A DNA stretch of 64,000 bases, taken from positions 186,001-250,000 of the forward strand of contig NZ_JAMSLR010000004.1 of the NCBI RefSeq assembly GCF_023806485.1, in the 5' to 3' direction. Numbering within the stretch: the first letter of the stretch is position 1; every line of letters starts with the position of its first letter. The notes under the pieces are model-generated. The model saw nothing but the letters and a program-made list of their open reading frames with translations. It ran no database searches and was not told the origin of the DNA. This document shows positions 15,594 to 23,557 of the stretch, piece by piece. Made by a program: the position numbers and the translations under genes. This stretch comes from Thermalbibacter longus. Lineage in GTDB: Bacteria > Chloroflexota > Chloroflexia > Thermomicrobiales > Thermomicrobiaceae.

Positions 15594-17144
15594 TTGCGGG
15601 AGATCGGCAGCAAGCGGGAACGCCTGGAGGCGATCCGGGCGGAGATCGCGGCGCAGGAGGCGGAGGCGGCGCGCCGGCAGCACGAGAGGGGCAAGCTCAC
15701 TGCCCGGGAGCGGATCGAGCACCTGCTCGACCCTGGCTCGTTCATGGAGCTCGACGCGCTGGTCCAGCATCGCTCCACCTTCTTCGGGATGGAGCGTCGT
15801 CGCCCCTACGGGGACGGCGTGGTCACCGGCTACGGCACGATCGATGGCCGCACCGTGGCCGTCTTCTCGCAGGACTTCACCGTCTTCGGTGGCAGCCTGG
15901 GTGAGGCCTTCGCCGCCAAGATGGTGAAGGTGATGGATCTCGCGCTCAAGATCGGCTGCCCGATCATCGGGATCAACGACTCGGCCGGTGCCCGGATCCA
16001 GGAGGGGGTCGAGGGGCTGGCCGGGTACGGTGAGGTCTTCTACCGTAACGTCCAGGCCTCGGGCGTGATCCCTCAGATCTCGATCATCGCCGGTCCCTGT
16101 GCCGGCGGAGCGGTCTACTCGCCGGCCATGACCGACTTCGTCTTCATGGTCCGCGGCATCTCGCAAATGTTCATTACCGGGCCGGACGTGATCCGCACGG
16201 TGACTGGCGAGGAGGTCACCCACGAGCAGCTCGGCGGCGCGGAGACGCACACCAGCTTGAGTGGGGTGGCGCACTTCGCTGCCGACGATGAAGACGAGCT
16301 CTTCCAGCAGGTGCGTGCGCTCCTGAGCTTTCTGCCGTCGAACAACCTGGAAGACCCGCCATACGTGACGCCGAGCGACGCCCCGGAGCGCGAAGACCCG
16401 GCACTCGACGACCTGGTGCCCGAGATCAGCAGCAAGCCCTATGACATGCACGAGGTCATCGCCCGGATCGTGGATGACGGTGAGTTCTTCGAGGTGCAGC
16501 CGGCCTGGGCGCAGAACATCATCATTGGCTTCGCTCGTCTGGATGGCCATCCGGTCGGCATCGTCGCGAACCAGCCTCGGGTGCTGGCCGGCACGCTCGA
16601 CATCGATGCCTCGGTGAAGGCGGCGCGGTTCGTGCGCTTCTGCGACGCCTTCAACATCCCGCTGATCACGCTGGTGGACGTGCCGGGCTTCCTCCCTGGC
16701 ACTCAGCAGGAGTACGGGGGGATCATCCGCCATGGCTCCAAGCTGCTCTACGCCTACTGCGAGGCCACGGTACCGAAGCTCACTGTGATCACTCGCAAGG
16801 CCTACGGTGGCGCCTACGTGGTGATGGCGTCGCGCGCGCTGCGCTCGGACTTCAACCTCGCTTGGCCGACTGCCGAGATCGCGGTGATGGGCCCGGAAGC
16901 AGCGGTAAACCTGCTCTTCCGGCGCGAGCTGGAAGCCGCCGCAGATCCCGAGTCTCGCCGGCGGGAGCTGGTCTCCGAGTACGAGCAGCAGTTCGCCACC
17001 CCATATCAGGCCGCGGCTCGCGGCTTCGTCGACGACGTGATCCTGCCGCGGCAGACCCGCCCCTGGCTGATCCGCGCGCTGCGGGTCGCCCGGGAGAAGC
17101 GAGTGAGCCGGCCGGCCCGCAAGCACGGGAACATCCCGCTGTGA
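15594..17144 (+). CDS. Acyl-CoA carboxylase beta (carboxyltransferase) subunit
   Basis: A 516-aa carboxyltransferase that moves the carboxyl group from biotin to propionyl-CoA, or possibly acetyl-CoA. The N-domain contains [31 protein letters not shown] and the oxyanion-hole region [17 protein letters not shown]. The C-domain contains [13 protein letters not shown] and the [12 protein letters not shown] loop. The length (516) is that of PccB/AccD-type enzymes. The TTG start follows GGAGGG. The epsilon-like gene overlaps its stop by 4 bases and the biotin carboxylase follows, so the three form a holoenzyme set. By subunit pattern, propionyl-CoA is the best guess for substrate. Confidence 0.94.
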
Positions 17145-17401
17145 CGGAGCAGCGCTGGATGACGGTGGGAGACACCGAGCTCAGACTTCGTGTCCAGCCG
17201 GAGCCCGAGCCGGTCGAGCTGGCTGCTCTGCTCGTGGCGCTCCGTCGTCACCGCTCGACTAGGGGCGTGAGCGCGGGTGCAGCGTGGTCGGCCGAGCGCT
17301 GGCGGCGTGAAGGCCGCGTGGCCAGCCGGTGGCGGCCGACCGCCGGGTGGCGAGAGGTCGCTCGATCGGAAGGGGTGGGCTCCAGTCATGGTTCGCTCTA
17401 G
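17141..17401 (+). CDS. Acyl-CoA carboxylase epsilon subunit-like small protein
   Basis: An 86-aa protein starting at a GTG that overlaps the beta-subunit stop (GTGA). The segment [20 protein letters not shown] followed by [15 protein letters not shown] and a TAGWREVAR end matches the layout of the actinobacterial acyl-CoA carboxylase epsilon subunit: an N-terminal strand-helix with ELAAL, then a Trp/Arg-rich tail. In Streptomyces and Mycobacterium this subunit stabilises or activates the alpha-beta complex. The position between the beta and alpha genes supports the assignment. Similarity is short, so the call rests partly on context. Confidence 0.65.
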
Positions 17402-17514
17402 GCGTGAGGGCGTCACTCCGAAGGGCCAGTGAACCGGGTGGAGATGGACGTGCTTGAACTGTCGAGATCGGGAAGGGGAGGGCGTTCCGTGCCCGCGCGT
17501 GTATGCCGGAGAGC

Positions 17515-19302
17515 ATGAGCCGGGTGACGAAGCTGCTGGTGGCCAACCGCGGGGAGATCGCGCTGCGCGTCATGCGCGCCTGCCGCGAGCTAGGTATCCG
17601 CTGCGTGGCCGTCTACGGCGAGGGCGAGCAGCAGGCTCCACACGTGCGCTATGCCGACGAGGCCTGGCGCATCCCCTCGGTGGCCCCGCTGCCGTACCTC
17701 GACATCGAGGCGCTGCTGGACGTGGCCCGGCGGGCTGGTGTTGATGCCGTGCACCCAGGCTACGGCTTCCTAGCCGAGAATCCGGACTTCGCCCGAGCCT
17801 GCGCGGACAGCGGGTTGGTCTTCGTCGGCCCGCCGCCAGGGGCGATCGCGCTGATGGGGGACAAGGTCGCGGCGCGCCGCGTGGCGGCTGAGGCGGGGGT
17901 GCCGGTCGTTCCCGGGACCAGCGGGCCGGTGACGGTCGAGGAGGCGCGGGCGTTCGGCGACACTCACGGGTACCCGATCGCGATCAAGGCCGCAGCGGGC
18001 GGCGGCGGGCGGGGTTTCCGGGTGGCCTGGGGGCCGGACGAGGTCGAGGCGGCCTGGCTCGGTGCGAGTGGAGAGGCGGAGCGCTATTTCGGCAATCCTG
18101 CTGTCTACACCGAGCGCTACTTCGAGCGTCCGCGGCACATCGAGATCCAGGTGTTCGCCGATGCGCACGGCGCGGTCGTGGCGCTCGGCGAGCGGGACTG
18201 CTCGATCCAGCGCCGGCACCAGAAGCTGATCGAGGAGGCGCCCTCACCGGCGCTCGGCCAAGAGACCCGCGCGCGCATGTGTGCCGCCGCCACGCGGCTA
18301 GCGTGCCAGGTGGGCTACGTCAATGCTGGGACGGTCGAATTCCTTTACCAGGACGGCGAGTTCTACTTCCTGGAGATGAATACCCGCATCCAGGTGGAGC
18401 ATCCCGTGACCGAGGAGATCACCGGCATCGACCTGGTCAAGGAGCAGATCCTGGTTGCGCTGGGCCGGCCGCTCTCGTTCAGCGAGCCGGTCGGCTTCAC
18501 CGGGCATGCCATCGAATGCCGGATCAACGCCGAGGATCCGGCCCACGCCTTTGCGCCTGCTCCCGGAACGGTGGCCGCCTGCCGGCTGCCGGCCGGTTTC
18601 GGCGTGCGGGTGGATGGCGCGGTGGAACCAGGTTACGAAGTGCTGCCGCAGTACGACTCGCTGCTCGCCAAGCTAGTCGTATGGGGGCGAGACCGCGATG
18701 AAGCGCTCGCCCGGCTGCGCCGGGCGCTTGCGGATTTCTCGGTCGAGGGATTGCCGACGACCCTGCCGTTTCACGCGCGCGTCGTCGAGCACCCGACCTT
18801 CATCGGTGGTGACTACGACACGGGCTTTCTGACACGACACCCGGAGGTGTTGGATGGGCTGGAGCAGCGCGTAGGGGGCAGCGATTCCCGGTCGCAAGAT
18901 CATCACGTCGGCGAGTCCTATATCGTCGAGGTTGCAGGCAGGCGCTTCGATGTGCGTATCTACGCGCCATCCTCTGCTAACCCGGTCCCGTCCCGGCGCG
19001 CGCGGCTACCGTCGACCCGACCGGCAACCCTGCGGTCCGGAAGTCGCGACGAGGTGCGAAGTCCGATCCAGGGCACTGTGCTGCGCGTGGCGGTGGAGCA
19101 AGGGGCTCGGGTCGAGGCCGGCGCGCTCCTCTGCGTGATCGAAGCCATGAAGATGGAAAACGAGATCACCGCTCCCCACGGCGGGATGGTGCGAGCGGTC
19201 GAGATTGTGCCAGGGCAGACGGTGCAGCCGGGCGCGCTCCTCGTGGTCATCGAGCCGGCTGGGGAGGCTGGCTCGGAAGCTGCAACCGGGCGCGGCGGAT
19301 GA
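17515..19302 (+). CDS. Acyl-CoA carboxylase alpha subunit: biotin carboxylase fused to biotin carrier
   Basis: About 595 aa. The ATP-grasp biotin carboxylase occupies residues about 5-450 (KLLVANRGEIALRV, AAAGGGGRGFRV, EMNTRIQVEHPVTEEITGIDL). The C-terminal biotinyl domain carries EAMK546MEN, where the lysine is biotinylated. A linker of about 50 residues rich in Arg, Ser and Pro joins them. With the beta and epsilon-like genes upstream it should make a complete ATP-dependent carboxylase. Start candidates are ATG 17503, ATG 17515 and GTG 17524; GGAGAG at 17508 best suits 17515 or 17524. Confidence 0.94.
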   Translation: MSRVTKLLVANRGEIALRVMRACRELGIRCVAVYGEGEQQAPHVRYADEAWRIPSVAPLPYLDIEALLDVARRAGVDAVHPGYGFLAENPDFARACADSGLVFVGPPPGAIALMGDKVAARRVAAEAGVPVVPGTSGPVTVEEARAFGDTHGYPIAIKAAAGGGGRGFRVAWGPDEVEAAWLGASGEAERYFGNPAVYTERYFERPRHIEIQVFADAHGAVVALGERDCSIQRRHQKLIEEAPSPALGQETRARMCAAATRLACQVGYVNAGTVEFLYQDGEFYFLEMNTRIQVEHPVTEEITGIDLVKEQILVALGRPLSFSEPVGFTGHAIECRINAEDPAHAFAPAPGTVAACRLPAGFGVRVDGAVEPGYEVLPQYDSLLAKLVVWGRDRDEALARLRRALADFSVEGLPTTLPFHARVVEHPTFIGGDYDTGFLTRHPEVLDGLEQRVGGSDSRSQDHHVGESYIVEVAGRRFDVRIYAPSSANPVPSRRARLPSTRPATLRSGSRDEVRSPIQGTVLRVAVEQGARVEAGALLCVIEAMKMENEITAPHGGMVRAVEIVPGQTVQPGALLVVIEPAGEAGSEAATGRGG

Positions 19303-19591
19303 AGCGTGGAGATCTGATCCTGCGCTGGCGCGGCCGGCCAGCCGGCGTTGTGCTCGCCCTGAGGATCCAACGGTTTCACGCAGTGGCGACGCGCTCTAGC
19401 AAGGTGCCGGCCGCCACGAGCAAACCGGAGCAGCGCGCAAGGAACCGCGTGTGATGTGCCCTCAGGTACCTGCCCCCTGACGCTCTCTCCCGGCTGTTTC
19501 GCTTTCCCCTCTCCGGGGCGGATGCCTGGTGGCGGAAGCCGCCGGGTGTCCGGACGCTTTGTACGAACACCGATGAGTTGACAGAAGATCA

Positions 19592-19620
19592 TTGCGCCGG
19601 GGGGTGTACGTATGTATCAT
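19592..19620 (+). promoter_or_regulatory. Candidate promoter of the mraZ/dcw operon
   Basis: TTGCGC (19592-19597) and TATCAT (19615-19620) are 17 bases apart, giving a start near 19627. A perfect TTGACA at 19578-19583 lies close by, but no -10 sits at 16-18 bases from it. The promoter call is strengthened by the TGGG repeats that begin at the expected start site. Confidence 0.45.
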
Positions 19621-19621
19621 T

Positions 19622-19690
19622 GTGGACAACGGTGGGGGAAGGTGGGGATAAGTGGGGACCACTGTGGAAAACAGGGTGGCCGGGTGGGGG
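19622..19690 (+). promoter_or_regulatory. MraZ operator: TGGG direct repeats with 10-bp period
   Basis: GTGGGG occurs at 19632, 19642 and 19652, exactly 10 bp apart, preceded by GTGGAC at 19622 in the same phase. It is followed by looser copies at 19664 (GTGGAA), 19676 (GTGGCC) and 19684 (GTGGGG). E. coli MraZ is known to bind TGGGN direct repeats separated by 5 bases, that is, a 10-bp period. The array overlaps the predicted transcription start about 150-210 bases before mraZ, which fits autorepression of the whole operon. Confidence 0.75.
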
Positions 19691-19835
19691 ATGGGCCTCC
19701 TAAGACCGGGTGTCTCCTCGCTGGCATTCCCGATCTCCTCACCGCGCGGGCGAACGATGCTCCCCGCGATCGGGCCGGCATGGACAGATGCCTCGCGGTA
19801 CCAGCGCCGGGCAGACGAACGGGACTCGACCTGCG

Positions 19836-20264
19836 ATGTTTCTCGGCCGCTATAGCCACACGATCGACGAAAAGGGCCGTCTCGCGATTCCGGCCCGGTT
19901 TCGCGACCTCTTCGGAGGCGAAGCTGTCCTGACTCGCGGTATCGACCGCTGTCTCACGCTCTATCCGATGGCTGCTTGGCGCCCGCTGGCCGAGAAGGTC
20001 TCCGCGCTGTCGATCAGCGATCCGGACGCCCGCACCTTCCGGCGCATGGTCTTCGCTGAGGCGACCGTAGTCCAGTTCGACCGCCAGGGGCGCATCCTGC
20101 TTCCCCCGGAGCTGCGCGATTACGCCGGGCTGGAGCGCGATGCCGTCGTGGTCGGCGTGAACACCTACGTCGAGATCTGGAGCCCGTCCGCCTGGTCGGC
20201 TCAGGCGGAGATGATCGAGCGCGAGGGTGCCTCGATCGCCCAGCGCCTGGCAACGCTGATCTAG
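19836..20264 (+). CDS. mraZ: Transcriptional regulator MraZ
   Basis: A 142-aa protein with the two AbrB-like repeats of MraZ. Each has a DxxxR signature: [16 protein letters not shown] (about 11-26) and [16 protein letters not shown] (about 77-92). MraZ forms ring oligomers, binds TGGG repeats upstream of its own gene and represses the dcw cluster. An array matching that site lies upstream. The ATG at 19836 (MFLGRYSH) is the conserved start, although the frame is open from 19710. It is the first gene of the cluster. Confidence 0.96.
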
Positions 20265-20334: not shown

Positions 20335-21321
20335 ATGCGCGAGAGGGTCATCACCACAATCTACCCTGAGGCGCCGCGGGCCGGGTCAGGAGGATCGTCG
20401 CTCCACCGGCCGGTGCTGCTCCGACCGGCGATCGAGCTACTGGCCGTGCGGCCTGGAGGGCGCTATATCGACGCGACGTTCGGTGGGGGAGGGCACACTC
20501 GGGCGATCCTGGAGGCCAGCTCCCCGGACGGCGTAGTACTGGCGATCGATGCTGATCCCGAGGCGATCGCGCGGGCCGAAGCGCTGGCGCGCGAGTTCCC
20601 AGGCCGGGTCGTTCCCTGCCAGGGTAACTTCGCCGCGCTCGCCGAGCTGGCGCGCGTCCGCGGCTTTGTCGAGGTCGATGGGATACTCTTCGACCTCGGT
20701 CTCTCCTCGTTCCAGCTCGCCGCCCCCAGCCGTGGTTTCTCCTTCCAGCTCAGCGGGCCGCTCGACATGCGCTTCGACCCCACACGCGGCCAGCCTGCCT
20801 CGGTCATCGTCAATACTTGGCCTGTCGATCGGCTGGCCGAGTTGCTTACCAAGTACGGGGAGGAGCCACGAGCGCGCCGGATTGCTCGGGCCATCGTAGA
20901 GGCGCGGCAGCGTGCGCCGATCGAGACGACCGGGCAGCTTGCGGAGATCGTGAGCCGCGTCGTGGGCCGTCGCCGCGGTATCCATCCCGCGACGCAGACC
21001 TTCCAGGCACTGCGAATCGCGGTGAATCAGGAACTGGAGGCGCTGGAAGCGGGTCTCGCCGCGTCAGTCGAGCTCCTTCGACCGGGCGGCAGGCTGGTGG
21101 TGATCTCCTTCCACTCGCTCGAGGATCGGCTAGTAAAGCAGTTCCTGCGGGCGGAGGCGCAACCGTGCCGCTGCCCACCTGGTGTGCCGGTCTGCGTGTG
21201 CGGGCAACAGCCGCGGCTGCGGATCCTCACCCGCAAGCCGGTGCGACCGGATCCCGAGGAAGTTCAGGTCAACCCACGGAGCAGGAGCGCGCGCCTGCGA
21301 GCAGCGGAGCGACTGCCATGA
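20335..21321 (+). CDS. rsmH: 16S rRNA (cytosine(1402)-N4)-methyltransferase
   Basis: A 328-aa SAM-dependent enzyme that methylates C1402 in the 16S rRNA P-site. Motifs are [14 protein letters not shown] near the start, [14 protein letters not shown] (SAM loop), [12 protein letters not shown], and [20 protein letters not shown] towards the end. A Cys-rich stretch [13 protein letters not shown] is typical of the family. GGAG and AGGA precede the ATG at 20335; the frame extends to GTG 20266 but homologues begin later. ftsL overlaps its stop (ATGA). Confidence 0.96.
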
Positions 21322-21827
21322 GTACAACGGTAAGGCCGCGAGCGAGCATGGGGACCGCTGCGTTTCGGCCAGCGCGCGAATCCCGCGCCGCGAGGGCCGT
21401 ACGGGCGGCCGGGGGATTGAGCAACGTGGCGATCGCGGTCATCGTAGCGCTGGCCCTCGGCGGGTTGAGCGTGCTCTATTTGATCCAGACGAGCCAGGTC
21501 GTGCAGCTCGGCTATCAGCTCACCCACCTTCAGGACGAACACGATACGCTGGTTCTGGAGAACTCGCGCCTGCGTTACGAGATCGCTCGTTACCAGTCGC
21601 TGGACACGATCGAGCGGATGGCGCGGGACGAGCTGGGCATGGTGCCTGTTCGACGAACGCTGTTCCTCGATGTCGAACGGCCGCCGCAATCCGAGTCAGA
21701 ACCCGCTGCCGGGCCCGCAACGGGTACAGTATCTCGCTGGCAGCGTCTCTGGGACCTGATCTGGGGTATCGGACGGGCGCGCGATCCTGAGGACCGGGCG
21801 CCAGCGAGCGGGCAGGGGGGCGGGTGA
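21318..21827 (+). CDS. ftsL: Cell division protein FtsL/DivIC-type
   Basis: A 169-aa bitopic protein. It has a basic cytoplasmic N-terminus (about 1-34), one transmembrane helix ([20 protein letters not shown], about 37-56), and an extracellular coiled coil with leucine-zipper-like spacing ([26 protein letters not shown]). The end of the coil, [12 protein letters not shown], is the classical FtsL/septum-formation-initiator motif. It probably pairs with FtsQ (DivIB) to activate FtsW-FtsI. The last 60 residues are a low-complexity extension. It sits in the canonical place between rsmH and ftsI. Confidence 0.88.
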
Positions 21828-23557
21828 TGCATCGCCCAGGAGGGACCTCTTCGCGGCGAATCTACCTGCTATACGCCTGCTTCGTGCTCTTCGCGGGCGC
21901 AGTAGGCTATCGCGTCTTCTCCTTCCAGGTGATGCAGGGGCCGGCGCTCGCTCAGCGCGCTGAAGAGTTCCGTTACCGCGAGGATCTGGTTCCGGCGCAC
22001 CGGGGCGACATCCTCGATGCCCGCGGCCGCGTGCTCGCCACCGACGTGCCCGCCGACCGGATCTCAGCCATCATCCAGGAGGTGGAAGATCCCCGAAAGA
22101 CGGCTCAGTTGCTCGCGCCGCTGATCGGTCGAAGCGAGGATGACATCTTCGCTGCTTTGACCCAGCCCGATAAGGAGTGGGTCGTGCTGCAGCGGCGGCT
22201 CTCTTCGGAGGCGTCCCAGCGGATTCGCGAGTTGAATCTCCCCGGGATCGTGCTCGCTCCCGAGCCACGCCGTGTCTATCCGATGGGCAGCTTCGCGGCG
22301 CAGGTGATCGGTTTCGTGAACTGGGAGTACGCCGGAGCCTACGGGATCGAGGCGGCCTACGACGACGTAGTCGGTGGTGTCCCCGGGCAGTTGATCGGTG
22401 AGCGAGACGCCGCGGGTAACGTGATCGCGCTGGGTCAAAGCGTCTGGAACCCACCCCGCGATGGGGCCACGCTGGTGCTTACGATCGACAGCGCCGTGCA
22501 GCGCATCGCCGAGCAGGCGCTCCGCGAGGCGGTCGAGGAGCAGGAAGCGGCCGGCGGGACGATCATCGTTCAGGACCCGAAGACCGGGGCCATCCTCGCC
22601 ATGGCGAGCCTGCCATCGTTCGACCCGAACCACTTCGAGGATGTCGAAGATCCGGGGCCGTTCGGCAACCCGGCGGTGTCGGCCGGCTACGAGCCGGGTT
22701 CGACGTTCAAGATCATTACCATGGCGCTCGGGCTCGATGCCGGCGTGGTGACGCCCGGCACCACCGTGGATGGCGGCGCCTATCGGGAGCTGCCTGACGG
22801 AACCCGCATCTACAACGCGTTGCACCAGGAGTTCGGCATCGAGACGATGACCGAGGTGCTCGCGCACTCCAGCAATGTGGGCGCGATGTTCGTGGCGGAC
22901 CGGCTCGGTGCCGAAGCGTTTTACGAGGGTGTTCGCCGCTTCGGGTTCGGGGAGCCGACCGGTGTCGACCTTCCAGCCGAGTCGGGGGGCATCGTCCACG
23001 CTCCGGATAGCCCGCTCTGGTCGCTCACCACGTTCTATACGAACGCCTTCGGTCAGGGAGTGACGGTAACGCCGATCCAGCTCGTCAACGCGGTGTCTGC
23101 CATCGCCAACGGTGGCACCTTGATGCGCCCCTATGTCGTCCAGGAGATCCGCGATGACGAGAAAACGACAGTGACTCATCCGGAGCCGGTACGACGGGTC
23201 GTTCGCCCGGAGACAGCAAAGCAACTCACTGACATGCTGGTCCAGGTGATGGAAACAGAGTATCGAGGAAAGTTCGATATCCCTGGGTATCGGGTCGCCG
23301 CCAAGACGGGCACTGCCGAGATCCCGTCGCCGGCGGGTGGCTATGAGACCGGGGACGGCTCGACGATCGCCTCGGTGGTTGGGTTCGGGCCGGTGGAGGA
23401 CCCGCAATTCACCGTGCTGGTCAAGATCGACCGGCCGAAGAAATCGCCCTGGGGCGAGCGGGCGGCCGGGCCAGCCTTTCGCAAGGTGTTCCAGGAGCTG
23501 TTCTTGCTCTACGGTATCCCACCGAGCCAGCCGGCTGAGCTGGACGGTGGATCGTGA
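21827..23557 (+). CDS. ftsI: Septal penicillin-binding protein (class B transpeptidase)
   Basis: A 576-aa class B PBP that cross-links septal peptidoglycan. It has one N-terminal membrane anchor (IYLLYACFVLFAGAVGY), a pedestal domain with RGDILDARGRVLA, and the transpeptidase domain with S292-TFK (nucleophile), S348-S-N350 and K493-T-G495. There is no PASTA domain at the C-terminus. A GTG at 21824 is an alternative start; the ATG at 21827 reuses the last base of the ftsL stop. FtsW, its glycosyltransferase partner, is encoded further down the cluster. Confidence 0.94.
   Translation: MHRPGGTSSRRIYLLYACFVLFAGAVGYRVFSFQVMQGPALAQRAEEFRYREDLVPAHRGDILDARGRVLATDVPADRISAIIQEVEDPRKTAQLLAPLIGRSEDDIFAALTQPDKEWVVLQRRLSSEASQRIRELNLPGIVLAPEPRRVYPMGSFAAQVIGFVNWEYAGAYGIEAAYDDVVGGVPGQLIGERDAAGNVIALGQSVWNPPRDGATLVLTIDSAVQRIAEQALREAVEEQEAAGGTIIVQDPKTGAILAMASLPSFDPNHFEDVEDPGPFGNPAVSAGYEPGSTFKIITMALGLDAGVVTPGTTVDGGAYRELPDGTRIYNALHQEFGIETMTEVLAHSSNVGAMFVADRLGAEAFYEGVRRFGFGEPTGVDLPAESGGIVHAPDSPLWSLTTFYTNAFGQGVTVTPIQLVNAVSAIANGGTLMRPYVVQEIRDDEKTTVTHPEPVRRVVRPETAKQLTDMLVQVMETEYRGKFDIPGYRVAAKTGTAEIPSPAGGYETGDGSTIASVVGFGPVEDPQFTVLVKIDRPKKSPWGERAAGPAFRKVFQELFLLYGIPPSQPAELDGGS

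Follow-up and report, generated by a model that had tools for sequence, protein, structure and literature searches.

Organization of the mraZ promoter region

In most bacteria, mraZ forms the head of the dcw cluster. The same arrangement is found in the window, by which we denote the entire stretch of 64,000 nucleotides that was analyzed, where mraZ is followed by rsmH and a gene for a penicillin-binding protein (Table 1). The start codon of mraZ is the ATG at 19836; a longer open reading frame beginning with GTG at 19710 was without support in the family alignment. The modeled MraZ of the window (mean pLDDT 91.7) reached TM-scores of about 0.8 against chains of the MraZ-DNA complexes 9sz7 and 9r4j, and G4, D11, R15, P19, R23, D82, G85 and R86 are among the residues invariant in 26 MraZ proteins of the Chloroflexota. 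Genes for a carboxyltransferase and a biotin carboxylase are located 5' of mraZ (15594-19302). A gene of the biotin carboxylase/biotin carrier type is the upstream neighbor of rsmH in several genomes lacking mraZ, indicating that this linkage is old.

The predicted mraZ promoter consists of the elements TTGCGC and TATCAT at a spacing of 17 bp. TTGACA at 19578-19583 was rejected as a -35 element, as its distance of 31 bp from TATCAT does not fit. Direct reading of the sequence confirmed the four GTGG copies in strict phase that an earlier note on this DNA had described: they start at 19622 (reading GTGGAC), 19632, 19642 and 19652, exactly 10 bp apart. According to the same note, the boxes start at the predicted +1. 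They do adjoin the promoter, but a single base (T 19621) lies between the -10 element and the first GTGG, so that box 1 spans the start site, which is predicted at about 19626-19628. Three looser copies had also been listed and are present as GTGG at 19664 (+12), 19676 (+12) and 19684 (+8); however, all are off phase, and only the copy at 19664 is conserved throughout the order. No Rfam match that would indicate an RNA leader element was obtained for 19300-20000.

Table 1. Features of the mraZ promoter region and related sites. Positions are those of the window unless a genome or locus is named; G000 is the genome of the window.
Feature	Position	Strand	Remarks
Palindrome TGTACGAACA, consensus TGTACGNACA	19560-19569	+	62 bp before box 1
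-35-like element TTGCGC	19592-19597	+	Read from the sequence; weak consensus match; TTGC about 17 bp 5' of the -10 element repeated among family members
-10 element TATCAT of the mraZ promoter (predicted)	19615-19620	+	TATAAT, TATCAT, TATGCT or TATTCT abuts box 1 in nearly all relatives
Box 1, TGTGGACAAC	19621-19630	+	First in-phase box; across the predicted +1; DnaA-box-like, reverse complement TTGTCCACA
Box 2, GTGGGG, MraZ core box	19632-19637	+	GTGGGG kept across the order
Box 3, GTGGGGATAA, MraZ core box	19642-19651	+	Most invariant box; 9 of 10 positions fixed in 32/32 order promoters
Box 4, GTGGGG, MraZ core box	19652-19657	+	GTGG in 32/32, AA directly 5' in 32/32
Box 5, TGTGGAAAAC	19663-19672	+	+12 bp after box 4; DnaA-box-like, reverse complement TTTTCCACA
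Two loose copies, GTGG 19676 and GTGGGG 19684	19676-19689	+	Out of phase; probably not core
mraZ, autoregulator, first dcw gene	19836-20264	+	TIGR00242, 137.5 bits (cut-off 98.35); fold match to MraZ-DNA complexes
rsmH (mraW), second dcw gene	20335-21321	+	TIGR00006, 340 bits
Penicillin-binding protein gene, ftsI/spoVD type, dcw gene	21824-23557	+	Downstream of rsmH
Candidate origin clusters	G000:C56:101900-101960 (L111 2760-2960); L210 3394-3640; L211 3318-3725		DnaA-box clusters
TGTACGNACA sites	G000:C1:633832; L236, L231, L241, L243, L274, L234, L210, L212		G000:C1:633832 lies before dnaA

Conservation of the phased boxes

Searches with PF02381 identified mraZ in 40 of 61 relatives. The order set comprised 32 non-redundant promoters of the Thermomicrobiales, i.e., 30 returned loci and two near loci added by similarity (L123 and L124); as these promoters are related by descent, counts within the set do not represent independent events. 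All 32 promoters display the same layout, in which the -10 element is followed by GTGGA(T/C)AA(C/G)n, GTGGGGnnnn, GTGGGGA(T/C)AA, GTGGnnnnnn, two further bases and GTGGANAA(C/G). Conservation of the 10-bp phase in relatives, the check proposed in the earlier note, was borne out: at least three phased boxes were present in 32/32 promoters when one-base variants were included, and four exact ones in 29/32, with almost nothing at periods of 7-9 and 11-13. Box 5 occurred at +12 (once +11) in all 32 promoters, with the profile (T/G)GTGGANAA(C/G). The loose copy at 19684 is retained in two genera (g1 and g2) and that at 19676 in the nearest relative only. Thus, an array of up to seven boxes, as had been suggested, was ruled out, since the fifth box is conserved but offset and the last two copies are out of phase and limited to near relatives. 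Among other Chloroflexota, 76 of 102 promoters had at least three exact boxes spaced at 10 bp and 24 had four exact boxes, and all 16 Firmicutes promoters had at least three; the three central GTGGGG boxes constitute the part that is common to the phylum.

The GC content is about two thirds, and patterns of three boxes occur by chance about twice per genome, which would be in line with a chance repeat in GC-rich DNA. Three phased GTGG yielded no match in 100 shuffles of the window. Within the whole 3.63-Mb genome, the three-box pattern occurred at the mraZ site alone, as two overlapping matches, and this genome-wide pattern search revealed no further promoter with three phased boxes that might be regulated by MraZ. 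As the reversed control also matched twice, three boxes by themselves can arise by chance, and it is conservation and the fourth box that carry weight. For four phased GTGG, the expected frequency is about 2e-7 per 250 bp and about 0.005 per genome; none occurred in 1e7 simulated positions, and the place of the array before mraZ is fixed in 32/32 relatives. Expectation and conservation therefore rule out a chance repeat, the probability of which we regard as negligible.

The array as a probable MraZ operator

The array comprises at least three phased repeats directly 3' of a predicted -10 element, its cognate mraZ is adjacent, and it is kept in relatives with mraZ and gone where the gene has been lost. 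Phase, position and the mraZ gene downstream support the proposal of the earlier note that the array serves as the MraZ operator at the dcw promoter, and period-10 arrays in other Chloroflexota, in Firmicutes and in Escherichia coli mark it as a standard one. We assign a probability of roughly 85% to the reading, which is derived from the sequence, that MraZ controls its own dcw promoter through this array; autoregulation by MraZ is very likely, while its tightness, as suggested in the earlier note, is an inference.

Operators of this kind have been described in several bacteria. TGGG repeats at the E. coli mraZ promoter go back to Eraso et al. (2014), as cited in PMC4446571 and PMC7761207. 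As read by us, the E. coli array is GTGGGAAATT GTGGGGCAAA GTGGGAATAA GGGG; its phase is likewise 10 bp, so the likeness in spacing noted earlier holds. As in the window, GTGGG boxes lie just 5' of mraZ and in the same orientation, but the E. coli operator has three full boxes and a weak GGGG and is devoid of DnaA-type end boxes. In Burkholderia cenocepacia, MraZ was shown by EMSA to bind a fragment with four 7-nt repeats and 3-nt spacers just after the -10 element and over the start site, as in the window, whereas no fifth offset box or DnaA-type boxes are described there (PMC7761207). Mycoplasma genitalium MraZ on a four-box promoter has been solved by cryo-EM (9sz7), and the site in Mollicutes consists of AAAGTG(T/G) repeats (Fisunov et al., 2016, as cited in PMC8475190). 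Direct repeats, four boxes and the MraZ fold are shared with the window. Compared with the Mollicutes consensus as cited there (PMC8475190), boxes 3 and 4 of the window are similarly preceded by AA or AG, whereas boxes 1 and 5 lack AA(A) before GTG and carry an ANAA(C/G) tail. The claim that the array is an unusual, longer version of the operator could hence not be upheld, as four-box operators are known from B. cenocepacia and M. genitalium and occur in the other Chloroflexota mentioned above. The operator is genuine and belongs to a known type; this core finding is ordinary, since three- and four-box MraZ operators with a 10-bp period are known and a four-box MraZ-DNA complex has been solved.

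In the proposed mechanism, RNA polymerase would bind at 19592-19620, and MraZ multimers would occupy the boxes on one face of the helix in successive turns from the start site to about +45. Bound MraZ would block promoter opening or escape, so that mraZ, rsmH and the division genes would be under negative feedback, and the block on initiation would be relieved when the level of MraZ falls. Here, we infer repression rather than activation, which the sequence of a 10-bp array alone does not prove. Box 5, with its offset of 12 bp, is at odds with a simple one-face model.

For the mraZ promoter region of Staphylococcus aureus, a G-quadruplex has been reported to affect dcw expression (PMC11796246), and with this precedent the G-rich repeats might act in the same way. 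One canonical motif, GGGTGGCCGGGTGGGGGATGGG at 19674-19695, is located just 3' of the array; it is formed by the two loose copies and not generally conserved. The array of the window itself is without such a motif, and a canonical one occurs inside the array in 5/32 order promoters, so that a G-quadruplex was ruled out as a conserved feature of the array and a role for it does not fit. What is conserved is the GTGG phase and the AYAA tails and not the number of G runs, and we consider a function as DNA G-quadruplex very unlikely.

The end boxes resemble DnaA boxes

The earlier note missed that boxes 1 and 5 differ from boxes 2-4 and resemble binding sites of the replication initiator DnaA. Across the order set, the sequence of boxes 2-4 is GTGGGG or close to it, whereas boxes 1 and 5 read GTGGANAA(C/G). 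Box 1 has a T before GTGG in 32/32 and the profile GTGGA(T/C)AA(C/G). Position 5 is an A in 32/32 copies of both boxes and position 7 in 32/32 copies of box 5 and 31/32 of box 1; the position between the two is free, and the last one is mostly C or G. The opposite strand of these boxes thus reads (C/G)TTNTCCAC(A), which is the form of a DnaA box; TTGTCCACA (box 1) and TTTTCCACA (box 5) are each one change from the DnaA box TTATCCACA.

No DnaA boxes were found at the dnaA promoter of the window's genome, and candidate origins were therefore sought by box pairs in 31 relatives. This search recovered the mraZ site in most genomes, often along with one other cluster. Two of the clusters, with 7 and 9 boxes in both orientations within less than 450 bp, are origin-like candidates. 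In the window's genome and in G008, a member of another genus, the clusters adjoin related oxidoreductase genes; the candidate origin of the former is not beside dnaA, and the GC skew around it is weakly suggestive. A DnaA profile was built from 36 boxes of eight candidate origin clusters in the order and compared with that of boxes 2-4, with scoring confined to positions that the search itself had left free. It was favored by 32/32 copies of box 5 (mean 7.7 bits) and all 31 testable copies of box 1 (8.4 bits); the end boxes are indistinguishable from the DnaA boxes in the candidate, not proven, origins of the same genomes. For the order set, the density of TGTGGATAA per 10 kb was 42 in the 220 bp preceding mraZ compared with 0.11 in the flanks, and other orders of the tail letters (TGTGGAATA, TGTGGTAAA and TGTGGAAAT) yielded one occurrence in total.

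DnaA-type boxes also appear in other lineages. In families f26 (L051, L056-L060, L063) and f45 (L035, L036, L038, L041, L062) of the phylum, TTATCCAC boxes are arranged in tandem on the opposite strand at a distance of 11 bp from each other; they lie 5' of the -10 element, in most cases with an inverted copy, and a plain MraZ array is located on the 3' side. Their physical separation from the array argues against regarding the DnaA-type boxes of dcw promoters as mere degenerate versions of MraZ boxes. In Patescibacteria, TGTGGATAAC boxes are situated in or after the array. None were present in the Firmicutes promoters examined, and promoters of the Chloroflexales type are also without them.

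Several genera within the order and families within the phylum (L198-L206, L215-L230) have lost mraZ at the head of their dcw cluster, and the array is always gone too. Neither GTGGGG arrays nor TTNTCCAC boxes were found before rsmH in the mraZ-less genomes (9 informative in the order, 16 in the phylum). In some of these the gap before rsmH has disappeared altogether, indicating that the whole promoter left with mraZ, and in L203-L206 a promoter-like -10 element without boxes remains. The promoter has thus in some cases clearly been removed or rebuilt with mraZ.

Two readings of boxes 1 and 5 have to be weighed. The promoter may carry a composite operator, in which boxes 2-4 serve MraZ and the end boxes are genuine DnaA boxes; DnaA bound over the start site would then, jointly with MraZ, adjust the dcw genes to the replication state. 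We place the probability of this reading slightly below even odds. The match of the end boxes, and not of boxes 2-4, to the candidate-origin profile, the enrichment of TGTGGATAA with near absence of its tail permutations, and the boxes located apart from the array in f26 and f45 or similar ones in Patescibacteria all point in this direction. DnaA is moreover known to bind promoters of division genes, including ftsL of Bacillus subtilis (PMC11019786). There, as in the window, a DnaA-type sequence lies at the promoter of an operon with rsmH and division genes; in B. subtilis, binding is experimental, while in the window it is predicted from a sequence that is embedded in an MraZ array. However, independent DnaA sites would not usually show a fixed orientation and a fixed +12 spacing, 9 of 32 copies of box 5 end with C and not with the canonical A of TTATCCACA (as do some origin boxes), and the boxes are absent before rsmH in the mraZ-less genomes and from Firmicutes and Chloroflexales-type promoters.

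In the other reading, all five boxes would be read by MraZ alone, with the end boxes as specialized terminal half-sites whose likeness to DnaA boxes stems from the common GTGG core; we give this possibility somewhat less than an even chance. Such an array would lie on one strand with fixed spacing and be lost jointly with mraZ, as observed. A divergent first in-phase box is likewise found in families without DnaA-like boxes, e.g., GTGGCG..AG in f6. This reading leaves unexplained why the tail matches the DnaA form ANAA(C/G) exactly, down to the free position seen in origin boxes, and why separate clusters occur on the opposite strand 5' of the -10 element in other families. With respect to independence from MraZ, the boxes are lost with mraZ in the order, yet they stand apart from the array in f26 and f45. 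Co-loss with mraZ, the fixed orientation and the fixed 12-bp offset favor that boxes 1 and 5 are tied to MraZ, and because of this evidence the odds of a DnaA input at the mraZ promoter are put at about even. As a working model, the end boxes would belong to the MraZ-dependent array and be readable also by DnaA, which, at roughly even odds, would compete or cooperate with MraZ and thereby tie dcw transcription to the replication state. If MraZ alone reads the boxes, binding of MraZ should be kept when box 5 is changed to GTGGGGAAA, and DnaA should never bind; if DnaA is involved, it should bind wild-type box 5 and lose binding with GTGGGGAAA as well as with GTGGTAAAC. No description of DnaA boxes at mraZ promoters was found in the literature searched.

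A conserved palindrome upstream of the promoter

The second feature missed by the earlier note is a conserved palindrome upstream of the promoter. Copies with no more than one mismatch (eight forms were allowed) were found 20-115 bp before box 1 in 22 of 29 testable order promoters, compared with 2.8% of random segments. The window's genome contains 29 copies of the consensus TGTACGNACA and 3 of its reversed control, a difference of about tenfold. Sites at orthologous genes in the window's genome and G008 include mraZ, rplI (followed by dnaB), alaS and dnaN; bactofilin, a LysM protein, Thy1/thyX and the intergenic stretch that separates dnaA from a MarR-type gene are also common to both, and copies lie inside two candidate origin clusters. 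The list of targets suggests a regulon of replication and envelope genes, and TGTACGNACA is a candidate mark of a cell-cycle regulon in two genera.

Taken together, we tentatively propose, at clearly less than even odds, that the dcw promoter of the Thermomicrobiales is a cell-cycle hub with three inputs, i.e., feedback by MraZ, DnaA on the end boxes and the putative palindrome factor, as TGTACGNACA targets including dnaA, dnaN, rplI-dnaB, thyX, bactofilin and LysM would place replication and division genes under one regulator. The dcw promoter may be the place where replication and division are tied. As far as we found in the literature searched, a composite layout with DnaA-type end boxes and a palindrome common to replication genes is undescribed.

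At the E. coli mioC promoter, a reported MraZ site overlaps a DnaA box (PMC4446571), and the array described here could show whether there is competition between MraZ and DnaA for GTGG sites, as is hinted at there. If the link to DnaA or to the palindrome is true, the promoter would represent a direct circuit coupling replication to division in the Chloroflexota, a phylum in which, to our knowledge, cell-cycle control has been little studied.
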